From NCBI GenBank assembly GCA_012798795.1, contig JAAZMN010000210.1, forward strand, positions 1 through 32,215: a stretch of 32,215 nt of DNA, read 5' to 3'. A model generated the notes under the pieces. The model did not search any database, had not been told where the DNA came from, and saw only the letters and a program-made list of their open reading frames with translations. Origin of the DNA: Bacillota bacterium (GTDB taxonomy: Bacteria; Bacillota; Limnochordia; Darwinibacteriales; DTU012). This document shows positions 15,336 to 29,447 of this stretch, piece after piece. Every line of letters starts with the position of its first letter. The stretch's first letter is position 1. Made by a program: the position numbers and the translations under genes.

Positions 15336-15523
15336 AATCGAGCCCTGCTGTGTTCGGGATGATTGTCGGCTTCGTTATGAGCCAACACCATAACAAAGGG
15401 AATTCGGCTCTAACGGTGGAGTACACGCCTGTTAAAACTGGACGTATGAATTCGTTAGGAGAATACCCACCTGCTGAGAGCAGGTTCATTCAAGCCGACA
15501 GAACGACATAGTGGGGAAAGGTG
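15336..15523 (+). ncRNA. ssrS: 6S RNA (RNA polymerase-binding regulatory RNA)
   Basis: About 190 nt of non-coding sequence with the 6S architecture. The closing stem pairs CCCTGCTGTG (15343-15352) with CATAGTGGGG (15507-15516), continuing with TTC (15353-15355) and GAA (15501-15503) across a small bulge. Then TGTCGGCTT (15364-15372) pairs perfectly with AAGCCGACA (15492-15500). These enclose a large, weakly paired interior with a terminal hairpin (CCTGCT-GAG-AGCAGG at 15471-15485). The GCCCTGCTGTGTTCG start resembles Firmicutes 6S RNA. As I recall, 6S-1 RNA (bsrA) of Bacillus subtilis also lies between aspS and tcdA (yrvM). The RNA mimics an open promoter and holds the housekeeping RNA polymerase. 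Ends are approximate: the primary transcript probably runs into the terminator at 15529. Confidence 0.88.
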
Positions 15524-20880: not shown

Positions 20881-23535
20881 ATGAAGTATTTATCAGCCGA
20901 TCAGATACGGTCATTATTTTTAGATTTTTTTAAGTCAAAAAAACATAAAGTTTTGCCTAGTGCCTCCCTAATTCCGCATGGAGATGCTAGTTTGTTATTA
21001 ACAGGTGCAGGAATGGTACCATTTAAACCATATTTTCTTGGACAAGAAGACCCGGAGTTTACCAGGGTAACTACTTGTCAGCGCTGTATAAGGACACTTG
21101 ATATCGAAAATGTAGGTAAAACAGATAGGCATGGAACATTCTTTGAAATGTTAGGAAATTTTTCTTTTGGTGATTATTTTAAGCACGAAGCAATTTCTTG
21201 GGCATGGGAATTTGTTACTGAACATCTGGAACTTGAAGAAGATAAGATTTGGGTAAGTGTTTATTTGGACGATGATGAAGCTTATCAAATTTGGAATGAA
21301 ACAATTAAAGTTCCCGAAGACAGAATTGTCCGCTTAGGTAAGGAAGATAATTTTTGGGAAATCGGTGTTGGATATCCCTGTGGCCCATGTTCTGAAATGT
21401 ATTATGATCGAGGAAGCGAATTTGGATGCGGTGATCCCAACTGCAGACCGGGTTGTGAATGCGAACGGTTTATGGAGTTTTGGAATTTGGTTTTCATTCA
21501 ATATATTTTAACTGAAGTTGGTAGGTATGAACCACTGGAAAACAAGGGTATTGATACCGGTATGGGAATGGAGCGTATAGCGGCTTTAATGCAGAATGTA
21601 AAGAGTATATTCGAAATTGATTCGGTCCGGCCGGTAATTGATAAAGCTGCAGAGCTGGCAAATACCCAATATGGAGTAATTGATAAACACGATGAATCAC
21701 TTCGGGTTATTGCCGATCATGCCCGCGGATTAACGTTTATGGTTAGTGACGGAATTTTACCCAGCAACGAAGGGCGCGGATATGTTTTAAGAAGATTAAT
21801 ACGAAGAGCGGCAAGACACGGACGGCTGTTGGGGATCCAAGGACAATTTTTACTTGATATTGTTGATGTAGTGATTGAGCAGATGCAAGCACAATATTCG
21901 GAACTAGAAGAAAAACGTGATTATATTCATAAAGTAGTCAGTTTAGAGGAAAATCGTTTTTATGAAACGCTTGATCAAGGCATCGGCATTCTCCAAGGAA
22001 TAATTAAAGATTTAGGTGTGAAAAAGCAGCGGGTCATTTCCGGGAGCGATGTTTTTAGATTGTATGATACTTATGGTTTTCCTGTTGAATTAACCCGTGA
22101 GATCGCGGAAGAAAATGGCCTTACCATTGATGAAACTGGATTTAAAGATGAGATGGAAAAACAGAGAAAACGAGCCAGAGCTGCTCATGTTCAGAAGGAT
22201 TATTTAGATTGGCAGGCTGACTTATATCATGAATTGAGAACACAGATTGCCTGTACTTTTGTCGGATATGAACACACTGAATATTCATCAACTGTAGCTG
22301 CAATTATTAAAGGTGATCAACGTACAGAACGGATTACAGCAGGCGAAGAAGGAATAATCATTCTGTTTGAAACTCCTTTCTATGCCGAGAGCGGCGGTCA
22401 AGCAGCGGATAGTGGTACAATTACCGGAAAAGTAGGGCAGTTTAGAGTTGATGATGTACGACATCCTGTTGACGGTATTATTACGCATAAAGGTAGACTG
22501 ACATCCGGAGAATTAAAAGTAGGTGATTCGGTATTAGCAGCAGTTTACAGTAAAACTAGAATGGATACTGCAAGGCATCACAGTGCAACTCACCTGCTGC
22601 AGAATGCTCTTAGAGATGTTTTGGGCGATCATGTACATCAATCCGGTTCGTCTGTGGATGGAGATAGGCTGAGATTTGATTTCACTCATTTTGAAGCGGT
22701 AACCGATGAACAGCTTTCGTTGATTGAAAAAAAGGTTAACGAAGCTATTATGGCAAATTATTCAGTTAATACGGAAATAATGAGCTTAACCGAAGCCAAA
22801 GCCAAGGGAGCAATTGCATTATTTGGTGAGAAATACGACGAGTCTGTGCGTGTAGTCAAAATCGGTGACTCTATGGAACTATGTGGTGGGACTCATGTGC
22901 AGCATACAGGAGATATCGGTTTATTTAGAATTATTTCGGAGGGCAGCATAGCTTCAGGTGTACGCCGAATAGAAGCTGTAAGCGGCAAACGTGCACTTGC
23001 CTATATGGACCAGCGGGAAAAGGTCTTGCTTAAACTCAGCTCATTACTTGACTCGCCTTGGGAGCAGGCACCCGAGCAGTTAAATCGGTTAATAGAGCGG
23101 CAAACATCCTTAGAAAAAGAATTGAGTAGGCTTAAGTCCAGCGAAGTTAATGATATTGTGGATGAGTTAGTAAAACAAGCCGAATCGATAAACGGTATTA
23201 AGTTGGTTGCAGCAGAAGTGAGTCTTGTTGATGCCGAACAGCTGCGCAATCTAGGAGATCGTTTGCGGGATAAACTAACTCCTGCAGTAATCTTTTTAGG
23301 TGCAAAGACTGATAATAAAGTGTTATTTTTAGCAATGGCCAGTAAAGATATTGCCGGTAAGAAAGTTCATGTTGGCGATGTGATTAAGCAGGCAGCAAAA
23401 ACCTGCGGCGGAGGTGGTGGAGGTCGTGCGGATATGGCTCAGGCTGGAGGAAAATTACCAGAAAAACTGCCTGAAGCATTAAAACAGGCACGGGAAATGT
23501 TTATCACTCAGTTAGAGGAAAAAGAAACTATATGA
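20881..23535 (+). CDS. alaS: Alanyl-tRNA synthetase
   Basis: 884 residues, full length. Class II catalytic core ([20 protein letters not shown] start, [54 protein letters not shown]), tRNA-recognition region, editing domain with the zinc ligands HHSATH (about 565-570) and CGGTH (about 667-671), and a C-Ala domain ending in the glycine-rich [16 protein letters not shown] (about 841). Editing of Ser/Gly-tRNA-Ala should be intact. It has its own promoter and an unusual hairpin-bridged ribosome binding site. It is followed by ireB, as in other Firmicutes. Confidence 0.97.
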
Positions 23536-23578: not shown

Positions 23579-23848
23579 GTGGTTAATGATAAAACTACGG
23601 TTTTTCGCAGCGGCTTTCGCGATGACAGTAGTAAGGTAGGTCGAGTGCTGGATCAAGTATATAAGGCTTTACAGGAAAAAGGGTATAATCCCATTGGACA
23701 AATAATTGGTTATTTAATGTCTGGAGATCCGACTTATATTACAAGTCATGGAAATGCCCGTAAATTGATCACACAATTAGAACGAGATGAGATCCTAGAA
23801 GAACTTATAGCTAGTTATTTACAGAGTAGGTCGCAGGGAACCGATTAA
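23579..23848 (+). CDS. ireB: IreB / UPF0297 family regulatory phosphoprotein
   Basis: 89 residues, the usual size. Family signature: [32 protein letters not shown] with NARKLI and [10 protein letters not shown]. In Enterococcus, IreB is a small cytosolic protein phosphorylated on N-terminal threonines by the PASTA kinase IreK and controls cell-wall stress and cephalosporin resistance. Here two threonines (T6, T7) lie in the matching N-terminal stretch DKTTVF, so phosphorylation is plausible. GTG start with AGGGGGG about 9 nt upstream. In most Firmicutes ireB is followed directly by ruvX and DUF1292; here three genes intervene and a hairpin closes this unit. Confidence 0.93.
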
Positions 23849-23871: not shown

Positions 23872-23913
23872 TAAGTAAGTATTTATATCCCATGAAAAGG
23901 ATTGAGGGTTATA

Positions 23914-25164
23914 ATGCTAAAAGACTTTGTATCTCGTGTTTTACCGTGGCAGTCTGATAATTTAAATGACTCACCTACATATCGCATAGCTTTAGATATT
24001 GGTACAGAGTATGTTAAGGCTGTGTACATTGAACAAATTAGTCAGGTAGCAGCAATAATCGGTGTAGGGCGAGCTCGTCAAGATTATGCAGATATGGAAA
24101 GTGGTGCGGTTGCTAATATTGCCGGGGTTGTACGTTGTTGTCGTCAAGCCATGACTCAAGGTGCCGTAATGGCCGGTGTAAAGCCTACAGAGGTTGTAAT
24201 TGGTATTGCAGGCCAATATGTAACTGGAATAACCCGTACTGTTGTTAAGCAGAGGAAGAAACCAGAAAAAGCACTAACTCGCCGTGAGCTGCTATATTTG
24301 GTTGAAGGAGTTCATCGTCAAGCTTTAAAACAGGCAACGATTGAGATGGCAGAAAGACTCGGCTTTAAAAAATTAGACATGGAGCTGGTTAATTCCGCCA
24401 TTGTGGACATTAGCATTGATGGATATCCGGTCAGCAATCCGCTGGGTTTTTGTGGCAGGAATGTTGAGATTACGGTATTTATGGCATTTGCACCTTTTGT
24501 ACATGTAAGTGCAATGCGAACCATTGCCAAACGTTTAGATTTGGAGCTTGTAGGCTTTGTGGCGGAACCCTATGCAGTAGCCGCTGGCTCTTTTACCGAT
24601 GAATCTTATGAGTTTGGGTCTCTTGTTATAGATATTGGAGGCGGCAGTACTGATATTGCTCTTGTTCATCGCGGTGGTATCGTAAAAACTAAAATGGTCG
24701 CTATGGGTGGCAGGGCTTTTACCAAAGGTATTGCTGCTTATTGCCGCACTACATTGCGAGAAGCAGAACAACTTAAGTTAGATTTTGCTGCAGGAATAAA
24801 TACTGATAAAACATTAAAAACAATTATTGATGCTGATTTAAAAATTTGGCAGGATGCCATGATTCTTGGGCTAAAAGAGTTGAATCAGGAAAATCTACTG
24901 CCACCTAGAATAGTTTTATGCGGCGGTGGTAGCGGTTTACCAGGGATTATTGATACCTTGACGGATAATAAAGTAGTTGAATCAGGTCTGTTTTCAATTA
25001 AACCGGATGTTAAATTACTTAACCCAGAAGATGTTTATGGGATTGCGGATCCGAAAGAATTTTTGGGTGCTGTTCAAGATGTTACACCAAAGAGCATTGC
25101 ATTTCAAGCCGCATTAATTGAACGTGGTACCAGCACTATCCTAGGAGGTGTTCAATTAGGATGA
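23914..25164 (+). CDS. FtsA/PilM-like actin-family ATPase
   Basis: 416 residues. Actin-fold nucleotide motifs in order: phosphate 1 IALDIGTEYVKAV (25-37), an SHS2/1C-like insertion (about 90-190; VVIGIAGQYV and VEITVFMAFA), phosphate 2 LVIDIGGGSTDIAL (237-250) and adenosine motif IVLCGGGSGLPGI (333-345). EPYAVAAGSF resembles FtsA/PilM. The C-terminus lacks the clear amphipathic membrane-targeting helix of cell-division FtsA, and no ftsQ or ftsZ is nearby, so this is a paralogue rather than division FtsA. The start at ATG 23914 follows GAGGG; the TTG at 23902 lies in that site. It overlaps the next gene by 4 nt (ATGA), implying stoichiometric synthesis with its membrane partner. Function unknown. 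Confidence 0.8.
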   Translation: MLKDFVSRVLPWQSDNLNDSPTYRIALDIGTEYVKAVYIEQISQVAAIIGVGRARQDYADMESGAVANIAGVVRCCRQAMTQGAVMAGVKPTEVVIGIAGQYVTGITRTVVKQRKKPEKALTRRELLYLVEGVHRQALKQATIEMAERLGFKKLDMELVNSAIVDISIDGYPVSNPLGFCGRNVEITVFMAFAPFVHVSAMRTIAKRLDLELVGFVAEPYAVAAGSFTDESYEFGSLVIDIGGGSTDIALVHRGGIVKTKMVAMGGRAFTKGIAAYCRTTLREAEQLKLDFAAGINTDKTLKTIIDADLKIWQDAMILGLKELNQENLLPPRIVLCGGGSGLPGIIDTLTDNKVVESGLFSIKPDVKLLNPEDVYGIADPKEFLGAVQDVTPKSIAFQAALIERGTSTILGGVQLG

Positions 25165-26573
25165 TTATCCGTATTGATCCTATGGATGAGCTGAATACAA
25201 TTGTACATAAGATGCGTATGGGACAAGATGATGAAATACTAGTTGTAGTTCCTGAAGACAATAAGATTCTGCACGATCCTATCAATATGAAGTTATTAGC
25301 TAAATACGCTAAAGAGCTTGAAAAAGAAATTGCAGTTCAAACTAATGATCCGGTTATTATAGAGTTAGCAGATGCTAACAAAATTACCACTATTAATGAC
25401 ACTTCTGCAGCAGCAGAAGAGGAAGACGAGGAAAAAGAGGCAGCGTATACTAGGAGACAGCGCAGAGGAACTCGAAAATTTGGTTACGATAAGTTGTTTG
25501 TGCTGCTGATAATTGTAGCTTCTATATTAGGATTGGCATACTATCATCTGCCTAAGGCGATTATTGTAGTTACACCTCAAGTTCTGGATTTTACGCAGGA
25601 CTTGGTTTTTTCAATTTCTGAATTAGATGGAGTTGAAATAGTTTCTGAAAAGCAGGTGTTAACAGGGCAAACTCCAGCTACAGGTAGAAAGACTGTAGGA
25701 GTAACAGCAGCTCGAGGATTTGTTACGCTAATCAATCATGGACAGAATGATGTATTAGTTAAAAAAGGGGCGGTAGTAGAAACAAAAACTGGTATTAAGT
25801 TCACTACCATTAATGAGGTAACGGTGCCTGCTGTAACGGTACATTATTTAGGTGATATACCTATAGGTTCTGCATCGGGAATGGCTGAGGTGGAAATTGA
25901 AGCAGTTGAACCGGGAAGTAAAGGTAATGTAATAAATAGCTCGATTGAAATAATTAAGAAATATGATTTAGATGTGCGAAATGTTAACCCGACTACAGGT
26001 GGAGAAGATATTGCATTTAGAATAGCAGCTAAAGATGATATTGAAAAAGCTCAGGCCATGGCAATTCGCGATGGCGAAAGAAAATTAAACGCTTCTCTGC
26101 AGGAACAGGCAGGTCAGCGCTGGGTTTTAAATGATACATTTGAAGTGAAGACTGAATGGACTGATATGTCTACAGTAGGCGAAGAAACAAGCGACGTTTA
26201 TGTATCCGGTGTTTGTACCGGTCAGGTTTATATGCTTGATTCCTATAAATTGAGCGAGCATGTCAGTGAGAAGCTAAGTGCTGAGATTCCATCTGGCTTT
26301 GTTATAGATGCTGATACTATTGTGTTTGATAATCTCAGACTAATATATGATGAAGATCTTAAGATGGGTATTAGTGCATGGGCAGTTATTCATGGTGCTG
26401 TGGATACTATCAGCTTAGCTAATGAATTAGCAGGCAGAGAACAAAGTGAGCTTGAGACAGTAATGGACAGTCATCCGACTATTGCAGATATATATATTGA
26501 AAGCGGAGTCGGTGATAAGCTGCCAAAGCTGCCAAAATGGTTAAGAATTAAAGTTGAACAGCCGATTTATTAA
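25161..26573 (+). CDS. Bitopic membrane protein with baseplate-J-like extracytoplasmic domain
   Basis: 470 residues in three parts. (1) Cytosolic N-terminal domain (1-80) of alternating strands and helices: EILVVVPEDNKILHDPINMKLLAKYA and EIAVQTNDPVIIELA. (2) A charged linker (85-108) and one membrane helix (about 110-129, KLFVLLIIVASILGLAYYH). (3) An outside region with a stretch like Baseplate J: GFVTLINHGQNDVLVKKGAV, then T-G-I-K-F-T-T, TVPAV, and VEIEAVEPGSKGNV (185-257), then about 200 residues of mixed alpha/beta. Similar proteins are annotated only as baseplate J-like; this one is not in a phage cluster. Positive residues before the helix predict N-in topology. The ATG overlaps the actin-like gene's stop; AGGAGGTG is about 10 nt upstream. 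Function unknown. Confidence 0.72.
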   Translation: MIIRIDPMDELNTIVHKMRMGQDDEILVVVPEDNKILHDPINMKLLAKYAKELEKEIAVQTNDPVIIELADANKITTINDTSAAAEEEDEEKEAAYTRRQRRGTRKFGYDKLFVLLIIVASILGLAYYHLPKAIIVVTPQVLDFTQDLVFSISELDGVEIVSEKQVLTGQTPATGRKTVGVTAARGFVTLINHGQNDVLVKKGAVVETKTGIKFTTINEVTVPAVTVHYLGDIPIGSASGMAEVEIEAVEPGSKGNVINSSIEIIKKYDLDVRNVNPTTGGEDIAFRIAAKDDIEKAQAMAIRDGERKLNASLQEQAGQRWVLNDTFEVKTEWTDMSTVGEETSDVYVSGVCTGQVYMLDSYKLSEHVSEKLSAEIPSGFVIDADTIVFDNLRLIYDEDLKMGISAWAVIHGAVDTISLANELAGREQSELETVMDSHPTIADIYIESGVGDKLPKLPKWLRIKVEQPIY

Positions 26574-26625: not shown

Positions 26626-27564
26626 GTGGAATATCGAGAATTGGGAAAGACTAAGATCAAAGTCTCTCGCCTTTGTTTTGGAGCGTTAACCATAGGACCC
26701 CTACAGCGCAATTTATCGCTTAATGAAGGCAGCAGGTTAATTCGGAAAGCATTAGAAGCGGGAGTTAATTTCATTGATACAGCTCAACTGTATGGTACTT
26801 ATTCTTATATCCGCCGGGCACTTGATAATTGGGATAGAGAGGTAATTATTGCAACTAAGACATATGCTTATACCGCGGAGATGATGTGCGAAGCTTTAGA
26901 AGAGGCAAGGCGAGAGCTGGATATGGATGTAATACCCATATTTATGTTGCATGAACAGGAATCAGAGCACACAATTAGGGGACATTGGCCTGCGTTAGAA
27001 TATTTATTAAATGCTAAAGTAAAGGGAAAGGTAAAAGCAGTAGGAATTTCAACTCATCACGTTCAGGGTGTTTTGGGGGCTTGCAGTTATCCTGAAATTG
27101 AGATTATTTCACCGATGATTAATGTTACCGGGATTGGTATTCAAGGAGGAAGTAGGGAAGATATGTTAGCTGCAATTAAGCAGGCTGCTGATTTAGGCAA
27201 AGGTATTTATGCAATGAAACCATTGGGAGGCGGCCATTTAATTGCCCGACAGCAAGAAGCACTTTCATTTTTATTGAATTTATCTGATATTGATGCAATT
27301 GCAGTTGGAATGAAATCAGATATTGAATTGGAAAGAAATTTAGCACATTTTGAGGGGAAACCTATTAAGGTTGATTTGATTGAACAGCCGGACAGGAAAC
27401 TTCACATTGATGATTGGTGTATTCTATGCGGCAGATGTGTGAATACATGTCCTTCCCGAGCTTTAAAAATGACGGAGAAAAAAATTGTAGTTGACCCTGA
27501 AAAATGTGTTTTTTGTGGTTACTGTGGTGCGGTTTGTCCGGAATTTGCCATTAAGGTCATTTAG
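26626..27564 (+). CDS. Aldo/keto reductase with C-terminal 2x[4Fe-4S] ferredoxin domain
   Basis: 312 residues. The N-terminal TIM-barrel has the aldo/keto reductase tetrad D51 (FIDTAQLYG), Y56, K78 (ATKTY) and H109 (MLHEQE), and a GISTH motif. The C-terminal domain carries two CxxCxxCxxxC motifs, C265-C268-C271-C275 and C294-C297-C300-C304, each followed by P, as in bacterial ferredoxins. Such fusions are common in anaerobes and probably exchange electrons between a nicotinamide substrate reaction and a ferredoxin pool; the substrate is unknown. GTG start with GAGGT about 6 nt upstream. It lies 52 nt after the baseplate-J-like gene, with no terminator hairpin visible, and 21 nt before ruvX. 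Confidence 0.9.
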   Translation: MEYRELGKTKIKVSRLCFGALTIGPLQRNLSLNEGSRLIRKALEAGVNFIDTAQLYGTYSYIRRALDNWDREVIIATKTYAYTAEMMCEALEEARRELDMDVIPIFMLHEQESEHTIRGHWPALEYLLNAKVKGKVKAVGISTHHVQGVLGACSYPEIEIISPMINVTGIGIQGGSREDMLAAIKQAADLGKGIYAMKPLGGGHLIARQQEALSFLLNLSDIDAIAVGMKSDIELERNLAHFEGKPIKVDLIEQPDRKLHIDDWCILCGRCVNTCPSRALKMTEKKIVVDPEKCVFCGYCGAVCPEFAIKVI

Positions 27565-27585
27565 TGTCTTTTGAGGAGATGTTTT

Positions 27586-28038
27586 ATGCGTGTTCTTGGA
27601 TTAGATTTGGGTGAAAAGACTATTGGTGTGGCAGTCAGTGATCAGCTGGGGCTGACGGCACAGGGGTTAGAAGTAATTAGAAGAATTAATAAGAAGCGGG
27701 ATTTCAAACGGATAAACCAATTAGTAATTCAGTATAAAGTGGACAAGATCGTAATTGGAATGCCGCGGCGGACAGATGGTTCTTACGGTCCGGAGGCTGA
27801 ACGGGTTAAAGAGTTTGCTCAAGCTCTGGGAAAATTCATAACTGTTCCAATATTTTTTTGGGACGAGAGATTTTCAACTGTAGCTGCAGAGAGAGTTTTA
27901 CTTGAGGGTGATGTTAGTCGGGCAAAGCGAAGAAAAGTAATTGATAAAGTCGCAGCAAGTTTGATTCTACAAGCTTATTTAGATAGAACTGAACAGTGTA
28001 TTACAATAAGAGGAGGTAAAGAGTATGACGGGAAATAG
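27586..28038 (+). CDS. ruvX: Holliday-junction resolvase-like protein (RuvX/YqgF)
   Basis: 150 residues. RNase H-like fold: VLGLDLGEKTIGVAVSD at the N-terminus (first catalytic Asp), VIGMPRRTDGSYG in the middle, and FFWDERFSTVAAERVL with the later acidic residues. The family is linked to pre-16S rRNA 5'-end processing and to Holliday-junction cleavage. The ATG at 27586 has GAGGAG 7 nt upstream; the frame is open from a TTG at 27571 which itself contains the ribosome binding site, so that start is rejected. The last 14 bases overlap the DUF1292 gene. The ruvX-DUF1292 pair usually follows ireB directly. Confidence 0.93.
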   Translation: MRVLGLDLGEKTIGVAVSDQLGLTAQGLEVIRRINKKRDFKRINQLVIQYKVDKIVIGMPRRTDGSYGPEAERVKEFAQALGKFITVPIFFWDERFSTVAAERVLLEGDVSRAKRRKVIDKVAASLILQAYLDRTEQCITIRGGKEYDGK

Positions 28039-28397: not shown

Positions 28398-29447
28398 ATG
28401 CCCTATCCATCTTTAACAGCTGAGCGGACCGGAGTTAAAGTGGTCCGTTTTATTTTAGGAGCGGTGCTGGCGGGTATTATTCTAGGGCAAATCGGTCTAT
28501 CTGTTTTAATGATGCTTGCGTATCGTCCTGCAAGCTCAAATGCGATAACTTTTGAGCAAATTGTCACTATCAATCAAGGGATGTCCGGTAAAGAGATTGG
28601 AAAGATGCTTAAAGAAAGCGGACTTATTCTTAATTCACATTTATTCAATCTCATGCTGCATATGACCAAAACCGGAAGTAAGCTTCAGGCAGGCGAATAT
28701 TTATTGAATCCGGCCATGAGTATTTTTGAGGTAATTGAAAAACTGAAGGACGGTATTGTTGTAACCTATCCGGTGATTATTCCGGAAGGCTATAATCTTA
28801 AACAAATTGCAGATTTGTTGGCTGAGAAAAACTTGGTTGATGAGAATAGATTTCTGATGCTGGCACACAATGCTGAGCTTGTTTATGGTGATGATTTACC
28901 CTTAGAGTTACCGATTAAGTCATTAGAGGGTTACTTATTTCCTGATACTTATCAATTTGCCAAAGGCCAGAGTGAGGAAGCGATTATTGGGCATATGGTA
29001 GCACGATTTATTGATCATGTGCTACCGCAAATTGATTTAGACAGTTTTGGCGGAAAATATTCATTACACGAAGTGGTGACTTTAGCTTCTATTGTAGAAA
29101 AAGAAGTGATCATGGATTGGGAAAGGCCTATTGTTGCTGCTGTATACCTAAATCGTTTAGATATCAATATGCGGCTGCAGGCAGACCCAACGGTTCGGTA
29201 TGTGATGACAGAAAATCGCAGTCGCGTATTGTACAGTGATTTGGAAATTGATTCACCATATAATACTTATCGTTATGATGGGTTACCCCCCGGTCCAATT
29301 GCCAGTCCCGGAATAAAATCGATTTTAGCAGTTTTGAATCCGGCTGATGTGGATTATTTGTATTTCGTTAGCAAGCGAAATGGGACCCATCAATTCAGCA
29401 GAACTTTTAGTGAACATGTTGCAGCACGAAGGAAGTTAGGTTATTAA
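28398..29447 (+). CDS. mltG: Endolytic murein transglycosylase MltG (YceG-like)
   Basis: 349 residues. Cuts nascent glycan strands in the membrane and is thought to set glycan chain length. One N-terminal membrane helix (about 15-42, VVRFILGAVLAGIILGQIGL), then a LysM-like domain (about 50-115; ITFEQIVTINQGMSGKEI and MSIFEVIEKLKDG), then the catalytic domain with EGYLFPDTYQF, the proposed catalytic glutamate E234 in LASIVEKE, LQADPTVRYV, and the C-terminal SPYNTYRYDGLPPGPIASPG and YLYFV. AGGAGG lies 8 nt before the ATG. It has its own promoter and leads into the U32 gene 32 nt on. Its neighbour ireB also works in envelope control. Confidence 0.94.
   Translation: MPYPSLTAERTGVKVVRFILGAVLAGIILGQIGLSVLMMLAYRPASSNAITFEQIVTINQGMSGKEIGKMLKESGLILNSHLFNLMLHMTKTGSKLQAGEYLLNPAMSIFEVIEKLKDGIVVTYPVIIPEGYNLKQIADLLAEKNLVDENRFLMLAHNAELVYGDDLPLELPIKSLEGYLFPDTYQFAKGQSEEAIIGHMVARFIDHVLPQIDLDSFGGKYSLHEVVTLASIVEKEVIMDWERPIVAAVYLNRLDINMRLQADPTVRYVMTENRSRVLYSDLEIDSPYNTYRYDGLPPGPIASPGIKSILAVLNPADVDYLYFVSKRNGTHQFSRTFSEHVAARRKLGY

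Follow-up and report, generated by a model that had tools for sequence, protein, structure and literature searches.

In type 4 filament systems, the actin-like protein PilM binds the cytosolic end of the bitopic membrane protein PilN, and PilMN is treated as an orthologue of GspL, in which the actin-like and outer parts form one chain (PMC4471445). In division, FtsA filaments form upon the binding of bitopic FtsN (PMC7613929). The type 4 pilus loci of Saccharibacteria have their own pilM, pilN, and pilO (PMC12206443), and the ftsA gene of TM7x is TM7x_02800, the locus tag of which is distant from those of ftsZ and of the two type 4 pilus loci (PMC10768705, PMC12206443).

The locus described here lies in a 32,215-nt stretch of Limnochordia DNA (the window, i.e., the whole stretch analyzed), and consists of two adjacent genes, which encode an FtsA-fold ATPase and a bitopic membrane protein. 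The pair resembles PilM-PilN and GspL in joining an actin-like cytosolic protein to a bitopic partner, and some lineages fuse the two into one protein with a degenerate actin-like part, in a manner similar to GspL. On the other hand, the outer part is baseplate-J-like, whereas those of PilN and GspL are ferredoxin-like, a folded N-domain stands where PilN has a short peptide, no filament genes adjoin the pair, and the ATPase scores below the PilM cut-off. FtsA has the nearest fold (TM ~0.7), shares the intact nucleotide motifs, and has a bitopic partner in FtsN, but the ATPase falls below the FtsA cut-off, lies away from ftsZ, and is missing from relatives that bear FtsZ. Other actin-fold proteins, such as EutJ, MreB, and those of the DnaK type, share the fold, with scores far under the cut-offs and lower structural similarity.

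The outer part has a beta domain like that of the phage baseplate J/wedge proteins (PF04865, PHROG_6) and passes the gathering score, but the profile matches only ~100 residues, and the protein is membrane-anchored, cellular, and outside any phage cluster. In phage baseplates, the baseplate-J-type domain builds rings. A literature search, with most subscription journals outside its reach, found no paper joining “baseplate J” with FtsA or “FtsA-like” with Patescibacteria, the main text of a Saccharibacteria genetics paper mentions neither FtsA nor the baseplate, and no description of the module was found in the searched literature, the coverage of which is incomplete. What is new is a module without a name, ancient and fused in one group of lineages, in which the membrane protein is the component that is always kept.

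Genomic Context of the Pair

The order of the genes in the window is alaS, ireB, ATPase, membrane protein, aldo/keto reductase, ruvX, DUF1292, mltG, and a U32-type peptidase, the last of which was called by sequence likeness only. The principal neighbors are as follows:

20881-23535, + strand: alaS, the upstream landmark common to the related loci (sequence)
23579-23848, + strand: IreB (YrzL) regulatory phosphoprotein (profile match)
26626-27564, + strand: aldo/keto reductase with a 4Fe-4S domain, the next gene in most Limnochordia loci
27571-28038, + strand: ruvX, the conserved downstream landmark (profile match)
28398-29447, + strand: mltG, endolytic transglycosylase, found downstream of the pair in all three phyla

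The ruvX and DUF1292 reading frames share 14 nt (28025-28038), and a 6S RNA is found at 15339-15521 of the window (RF00013, 73.4 bits). The preliminary description saw no pilus, division, or phage gene nearby, and pilus, ftsZ, tail, and sheath genes are indeed absent from the window genes read, with the caveat that an envelope gene, mltG, lies a few genes downstream. No eut genes were found among the window genes read.

The position between alaS and ruvX-mltG recurs in other Limnochordia, in L024 from Chloroflexota, and in L025-L029, which are from Saccharibacteria or otherwise CPR-like. L099 and L100, two complete genomes that belong to other families of Bacillota, have the order alaS, a large membrane protein, ATPase, membrane protein, ruvX, DUF1292, and mltG. 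The large protein, directly upstream of the pair (L099 8974-11118, L100 8189-10222), has many helices, resembles by eye an enzyme of the alkaline-phosphatase type, and is without a Pfam match. Nearly all of the Patescibacteria loci directly follow alaS, with exceptions that include L095, L096, and L141. Some loci hold another protein in the place of the ATPase, between alaS and the membrane protein (L088 5901-6728, L089 5102-5905, L112 5751-6917, and L132 6063-7229), and that of L088 matches the cupin-type glucose-6-phosphate isomerase (PF06560).

The arrangement in Bacillus subtilis, alaS-yrzL-yrrK(ruvX)-yrzB-yrrL(mltG), is without the pair, so that an old operon would either have gained the pair by insertion or have lost it. 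As this linkage exists without the pair, the proximity of mltG is weak evidence of function.

The ATPase

The first gene of the pair encodes an ATPase of the FtsA fold, with 416 aa if started at the ATG at 23914. This start is favored over the TTG at 23902 because a GAGG-like ribosome site is found immediately 5' of it, as the preliminary description had assumed. The features of the gene are:

23914-25164, + strand: reading frame of the actin-like (FtsA-fold) ATPase (longest form from TTG, 23902-25164, 420 aa)
23992-24021, + strand: phosphate-1 motif LDIGTEYVKA, conserved in 15 homologues
24628-24663, + strand: phosphate-2 motif IDIGGGSTDIAL (homologue alignment)
24706-24732, + strand: family signature GGRAFTKGI, invariant over 15 aligned rows
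24916-24945, + strand: adenosine motif LCGGGSGLPG (homologue alignment)
25161-25164, + strand: ATGA stop/start overlap with the membrane-protein gene, 4 nt

The reading frames, the alignment, and Pfam agree with the earlier claim of intact phosphate and adenosine motifs and a 4-nt ATGA overlap, and the three motifs are largely kept across the 15 homologues. The protein matches PF14450 (FtsA) with an E-value of 4e-16, and its AlphaFold2 model (pTM 0.83, with a low-confidence C-terminus) finds FtsA as the nearest PDB structures in Foldseek (TM 0.69-0.71), followed by PilM (TM 0.52-0.61), and then by EutJ and MreB.

The ATPase scores below the cut-offs of FtsA, PilM, and EutJ, at 128 bits against 175.85 for FtsA (TIGR01174; 121.5 bits in the genome search), 26.7 against 133 for PilM (TIGR01175), 19.7 against 27 for PF11104 (PilM), and 26.5 against 152.1 for EutJ (TIGR02529). 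These scores reject an identity as EutJ or PilM, and membership of the FtsA family is rejected both by the score and by a presence that does not track FtsZ. A role in a defense system was also discarded, as the PADLOC matches are weak and local only. An amphipathic N-terminal helix is plausible by eye, and its hydrophobic moment is clearly above that of shuffled sequences in few members only, so that this candidate was set aside as well. A second FtsA-like family of long proteins (650-990 aa) is found in most of the relatives G001-G030, including those without the pair.

The Membrane Protein

The second gene encodes a bitopic protein, as the preliminary description had read it, and the domains below follow the AlphaFold2 model (mean pLDDT 86):

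25161-26573, + strand: bitopic membrane protein with a baseplate-J-like outer part, 470 aa (Pfam and AlphaFold2)
25161-25397, + strand: cytosolic N-domain, residues 1-79, b-a-b-a-b-a-b (AlphaFold2), without a Pfam or PDB relative
25398-25478, + strand: charged disordered linker, residues 80-106 (pLDDT < 50 for 81-106)
25479-25544, + strand: predicted membrane helix, single and long, residues 107-128 (AlphaFold2; hydrophobic sequence)
25557-26030, + strand: outer beta-rich core, residues 133-290 (PF04865 covers 182-284)
26031-26570, + strand: outer C-terminal alpha/beta part, residues 291-470, the fastest evolving of the structured parts

The baseplate-J-like character of the outer part is upheld by PF04865 (Baseplate_J), with 24.2 bits where its gathering score is 21.1, and by the baseplate wedge family PHROG_6, which matches residues 182-284 with an E-value of 6e-10. 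PF04865 also matches all 13 members of the membrane-protein set A1 at E <= 0.1, and is undetected in the membrane proteins of L024, L025, and L029. In Foldseek, the model finds phage baseplate J/wedge proteins, with a best PDB E-value of 6.6e-7 and 46 viral models below 1e-3, while the TM over the full chain against these proteins is ~0.2, which places the likeness at the level of the domain. PilN and GspL are absent among the 50 matches listed. The N-domain has no convincing relative in Pfam or the PDB, and a weak match to a SpoIIAA complex was also seen (Foldseek E 0.18).

Distribution and Descent

The relatives of the pair were located through an alignment search of the contigs with the ATPase, and a single-sequence search of the contigs with the membrane protein returned no relatives. 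The two genes co-occur widely, in Limnochordia, Chloroflexota, and Patescibacteria, in agreement with the preliminary description, which had treated them as parts of one possible system. Within the class to which the window belongs, 27 of 73 genomes carry the membrane protein and 13 the ATPase, and all 13 have the membrane protein as well. The ATPase is undetected in the other 14 carriers, as in many Patescibacteria, and balanced synthesis, suggested earlier from the overlap, is thus not supported in the sense of an obligatory pair.

Over Bacillota as a whole, the ATPase is present in six of the 199 genomes of a spread sample. It is also present in 56 of 201 Chloroflexota genomes, and all 11 of the further Chloroflexota loci examined (L101-L111) have the membrane protein beside it. 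Of 192 Patescibacteria genomes, 102 have the ATPase (E<1e-40) and 175 the membrane protein (E<1e-8), and the membrane protein lies directly downstream, on the same strand, in 88 of the 102 with a clear ATPase.

A 4-nt overlap is in itself common in operons. In the 71 loci that hold both genes, an NTGA overlap of this length is possible in 22, and the genes lie within 100 nt of each other in a further 43. The pairs with such an overlap include L015-L023 and L030 from Limnochordia, as well as some from Chloroflexota and Patescibacteria. It is the conservation of the pair across phyla, and not the overlap alone, that takes the adjacency beyond chance.

In the ATPase tree, there is one change each for Patescibacteria, Chloroflexota, Limnochordia, and the other Bacillota, and a single well-supported branch separates each of Patescibacteria, Chloroflexota, and Bacillota. 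Such a clean split fits long inheritance by vertical descent better than repeated transfer between lineages, and points to an ancient pair. Searches of the viral contigs of IMG/VR for the ATPase, and of phage records for the membrane protein, found no relatives, and neither gene of the pair is phage-borne. The two genes have been kept together in three phyla and are fused in some lineages.

Fused, Diverged, and Solitary Forms

A fusion protein of ~690-790 aa is encoded in 12 Patescibacteria loci, in which a degenerate actin-like domain (the first ~300 residues) precedes the helix and the outer part:

Fusion loci: L080 5774-7996; L081 6887-8962; L086 6143-8527; L090-L093; L114-L117; L124

The N-terminal part of the fusion matches the ATPase profile with an hhalign probability of 97 (E 1.6e-11), against 0.5% for the control comparison with the membrane-protein profile, and its phosphate motifs are unconserved. 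A sortase gene (PF04203) directly follows the fusion gene in all seven loci tested (L080, L081, L086, and L090-L093). These GspL-like single chains strengthen the PilM/PilN-like logic put forward in the preliminary description and, together with the linkage in three phyla, make it very probable that the two proteins work together.

In other loci, a strongly diverged ATPase still adjoins a membrane protein with the N-domain (L079, L082-L085, L094-L096, L118, and L122). The remaining Patescibacteria forms have either a membrane protein with the N-domain and no adjacent ATPase, or only a short cytosolic tail, which often starts with MRDIKP and may be a linear motif comparable to the N-terminal peptide of PilN. 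Starts of this kind, without the N-domain, are found in L120, L125, L128, L131, L134, L136, and L142, and several of these genes have alaS on one side and the rpsM-rpsK-rpsD-rpoA cluster on the other.

In Limnochordia, the genomes read from family f6 have kept the N-domain while the ATPase is gone, and G621, G622, and G003 are without both, which are found in G623, a relative of the first two. Given that the ATPase gene and the N-domain are contiguous, their joint loss may be one deletion. The ATPase of G002 (L158, 2150-2551) is a decaying gene, with an in-frame internal deletion that leaves 133 aa, and overlaps an intact membrane-protein gene. Of the two proteins, the membrane protein is the constant one, and the ATPase is an optional part that has disappeared on several occasions.

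Of the 71 loci in which an ATPase is adjacent, 69 have the N-domain, as against none of the 12 fusions and 17 of the 33 loci that have neither an adjacent ATPase nor a fusion (Fisher p 9e-13 and 4e-8 among the locus classes, values that overstate the contrast, as the loci are related and not phylogenetically independent). This pattern fits a docking site that would become needless once the two proteins are one chain, and the N-domain is probably the docking site of the ATPase. A strict rule tying the N-domain to the ATPase was rejected because of the 17 loci that hold the N-domain without an adjacent ATPase, where it would have another role or partner.

Discussion

We give about half of our credence to an ancient envelope module of the PilM-PilN/GspL kind, outside type 4 filaments, in which an ATPase regulator docks on the N-domain and the outer part scaffolds wall enzymes. 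The core of this module would be the membrane protein, with its N-domain, its one helix, and an outer part of the baseplate-J beta type. By analogy with PilM, the FtsA-fold ATPase would be a cytosolic regulator, most likely docking on the N-domain, and its ATP-dependent self-association may cluster or position the copies of the membrane protein. Outside the membrane, the outer part would form or hold a scaffold that localizes enzymes acting on the wall, such as MltG and, in the fused lineages, sortase. With mltG nearby, and a sortase gene next to the fused forms, a part in the assembly of the wall or of surface proteins suggests itself, although the mltG linkage comes down with the operon and says little, and our best guess, by analogy, is an envelope scaffold tied to cell-wall enzymes.

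The division machinery offers another reading, in which the ATPase would serve these organisms as their division FtsA, with the membrane protein as an FtsN-like bitopic partner. FtsA does provide closer solved structures than PilM, no FtsA passes the cut-off in any of the 31 relatives, and TM7x_02800, named ftsA and distant from ftsZ and the pilus loci, could be this ATPase (PMC10768705, PMC12206443). The ATPase itself, however, also fails the FtsA cut-off, FtsZ passes its own in 29 of the 31 relatives, many of which are without the ATPase, and ftsZ was not recognized beside the ATPase in the loci read. As a separate long FtsA-like protein is found in many of the same genomes, and many lineages have lost the ATPase, have it in degenerate form, or carry it joined to a membrane anchor, we do not file it as FtsA, and consider this reading unlikely. 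An alignment subcomplex of the PilM/PilN type, serving a type 4 filament encoded elsewhere, would share the architecture of the pair, with the fused form mirroring GspL. It is made very unlikely by the low score of the PilM model, by the lack of any pilB, pilC, or pilin gene recognized beside the pair in the window and the related loci read, by structural matches of the outer part to baseplate proteins in the PDB, with no PilN or GspL among those listed, and by the pilM, pilN, and pilO that the Saccharibacteria pilus loci already have (PMC12206443).

The adjacency may also be mere synteny, with a membrane protein that acts alone and an ATPase that merely travels, functionally unrelated, in the same old operon, and the ATPase is indeed undetected in about half of the carriers of the class and in 33 of the loci examined. 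Set against this are the 12 fusions, the association with the N-domain, the adjacency in three phyla, and its persistence even where the ATPase is strongly diverged, which leave a simple passenger decidedly unlikely. The baseplate-J fold of the outer part could, finally, mark a domesticated component of a phage tail or contractile particle, and the preliminary description had listed a docking site for such a particle among the possible functions. This gains no support from the searches of IMG/VR and the phage records, no tail, sheath, or phage gene is found nearby, and the protein is membrane-anchored and sits in a housekeeping operon, so that a phage origin is hardly credible and already largely refuted.

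A broader form of the envelope-module reading, put forward tentatively as a possibility that we find somewhat doubtful, is that the membrane protein is a near-universal, unnamed core of the Patescibacteria envelope, which these bacteria, Chloroflexota, and Bacillota would owe to a common ancestor. The protein would form a ring or lattice on the outer side of the membrane, positioned by the FtsA-like ATPase, or by the fused pseudo-ATPase, and couple the cytoskeleton to the assembly of the wall or of surface proteins.

Patescibacteria make up a large part of the diversity of bacteria, and little is known of the biology of their envelope. The membrane protein is found in about nine in ten of the sampled genomes of this group, with its actin-like partner separate, fused, or absent according to the lineage, and lends itself to study with the genetic systems that now work in Saccharibacteria. 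Genes annotated as ftsA in these phyla may not be the division FtsA, and the coupling of an actin-like protein to an outer scaffold, in the style of PilM-PilN and GspL, would extend beyond type 4 filaments.
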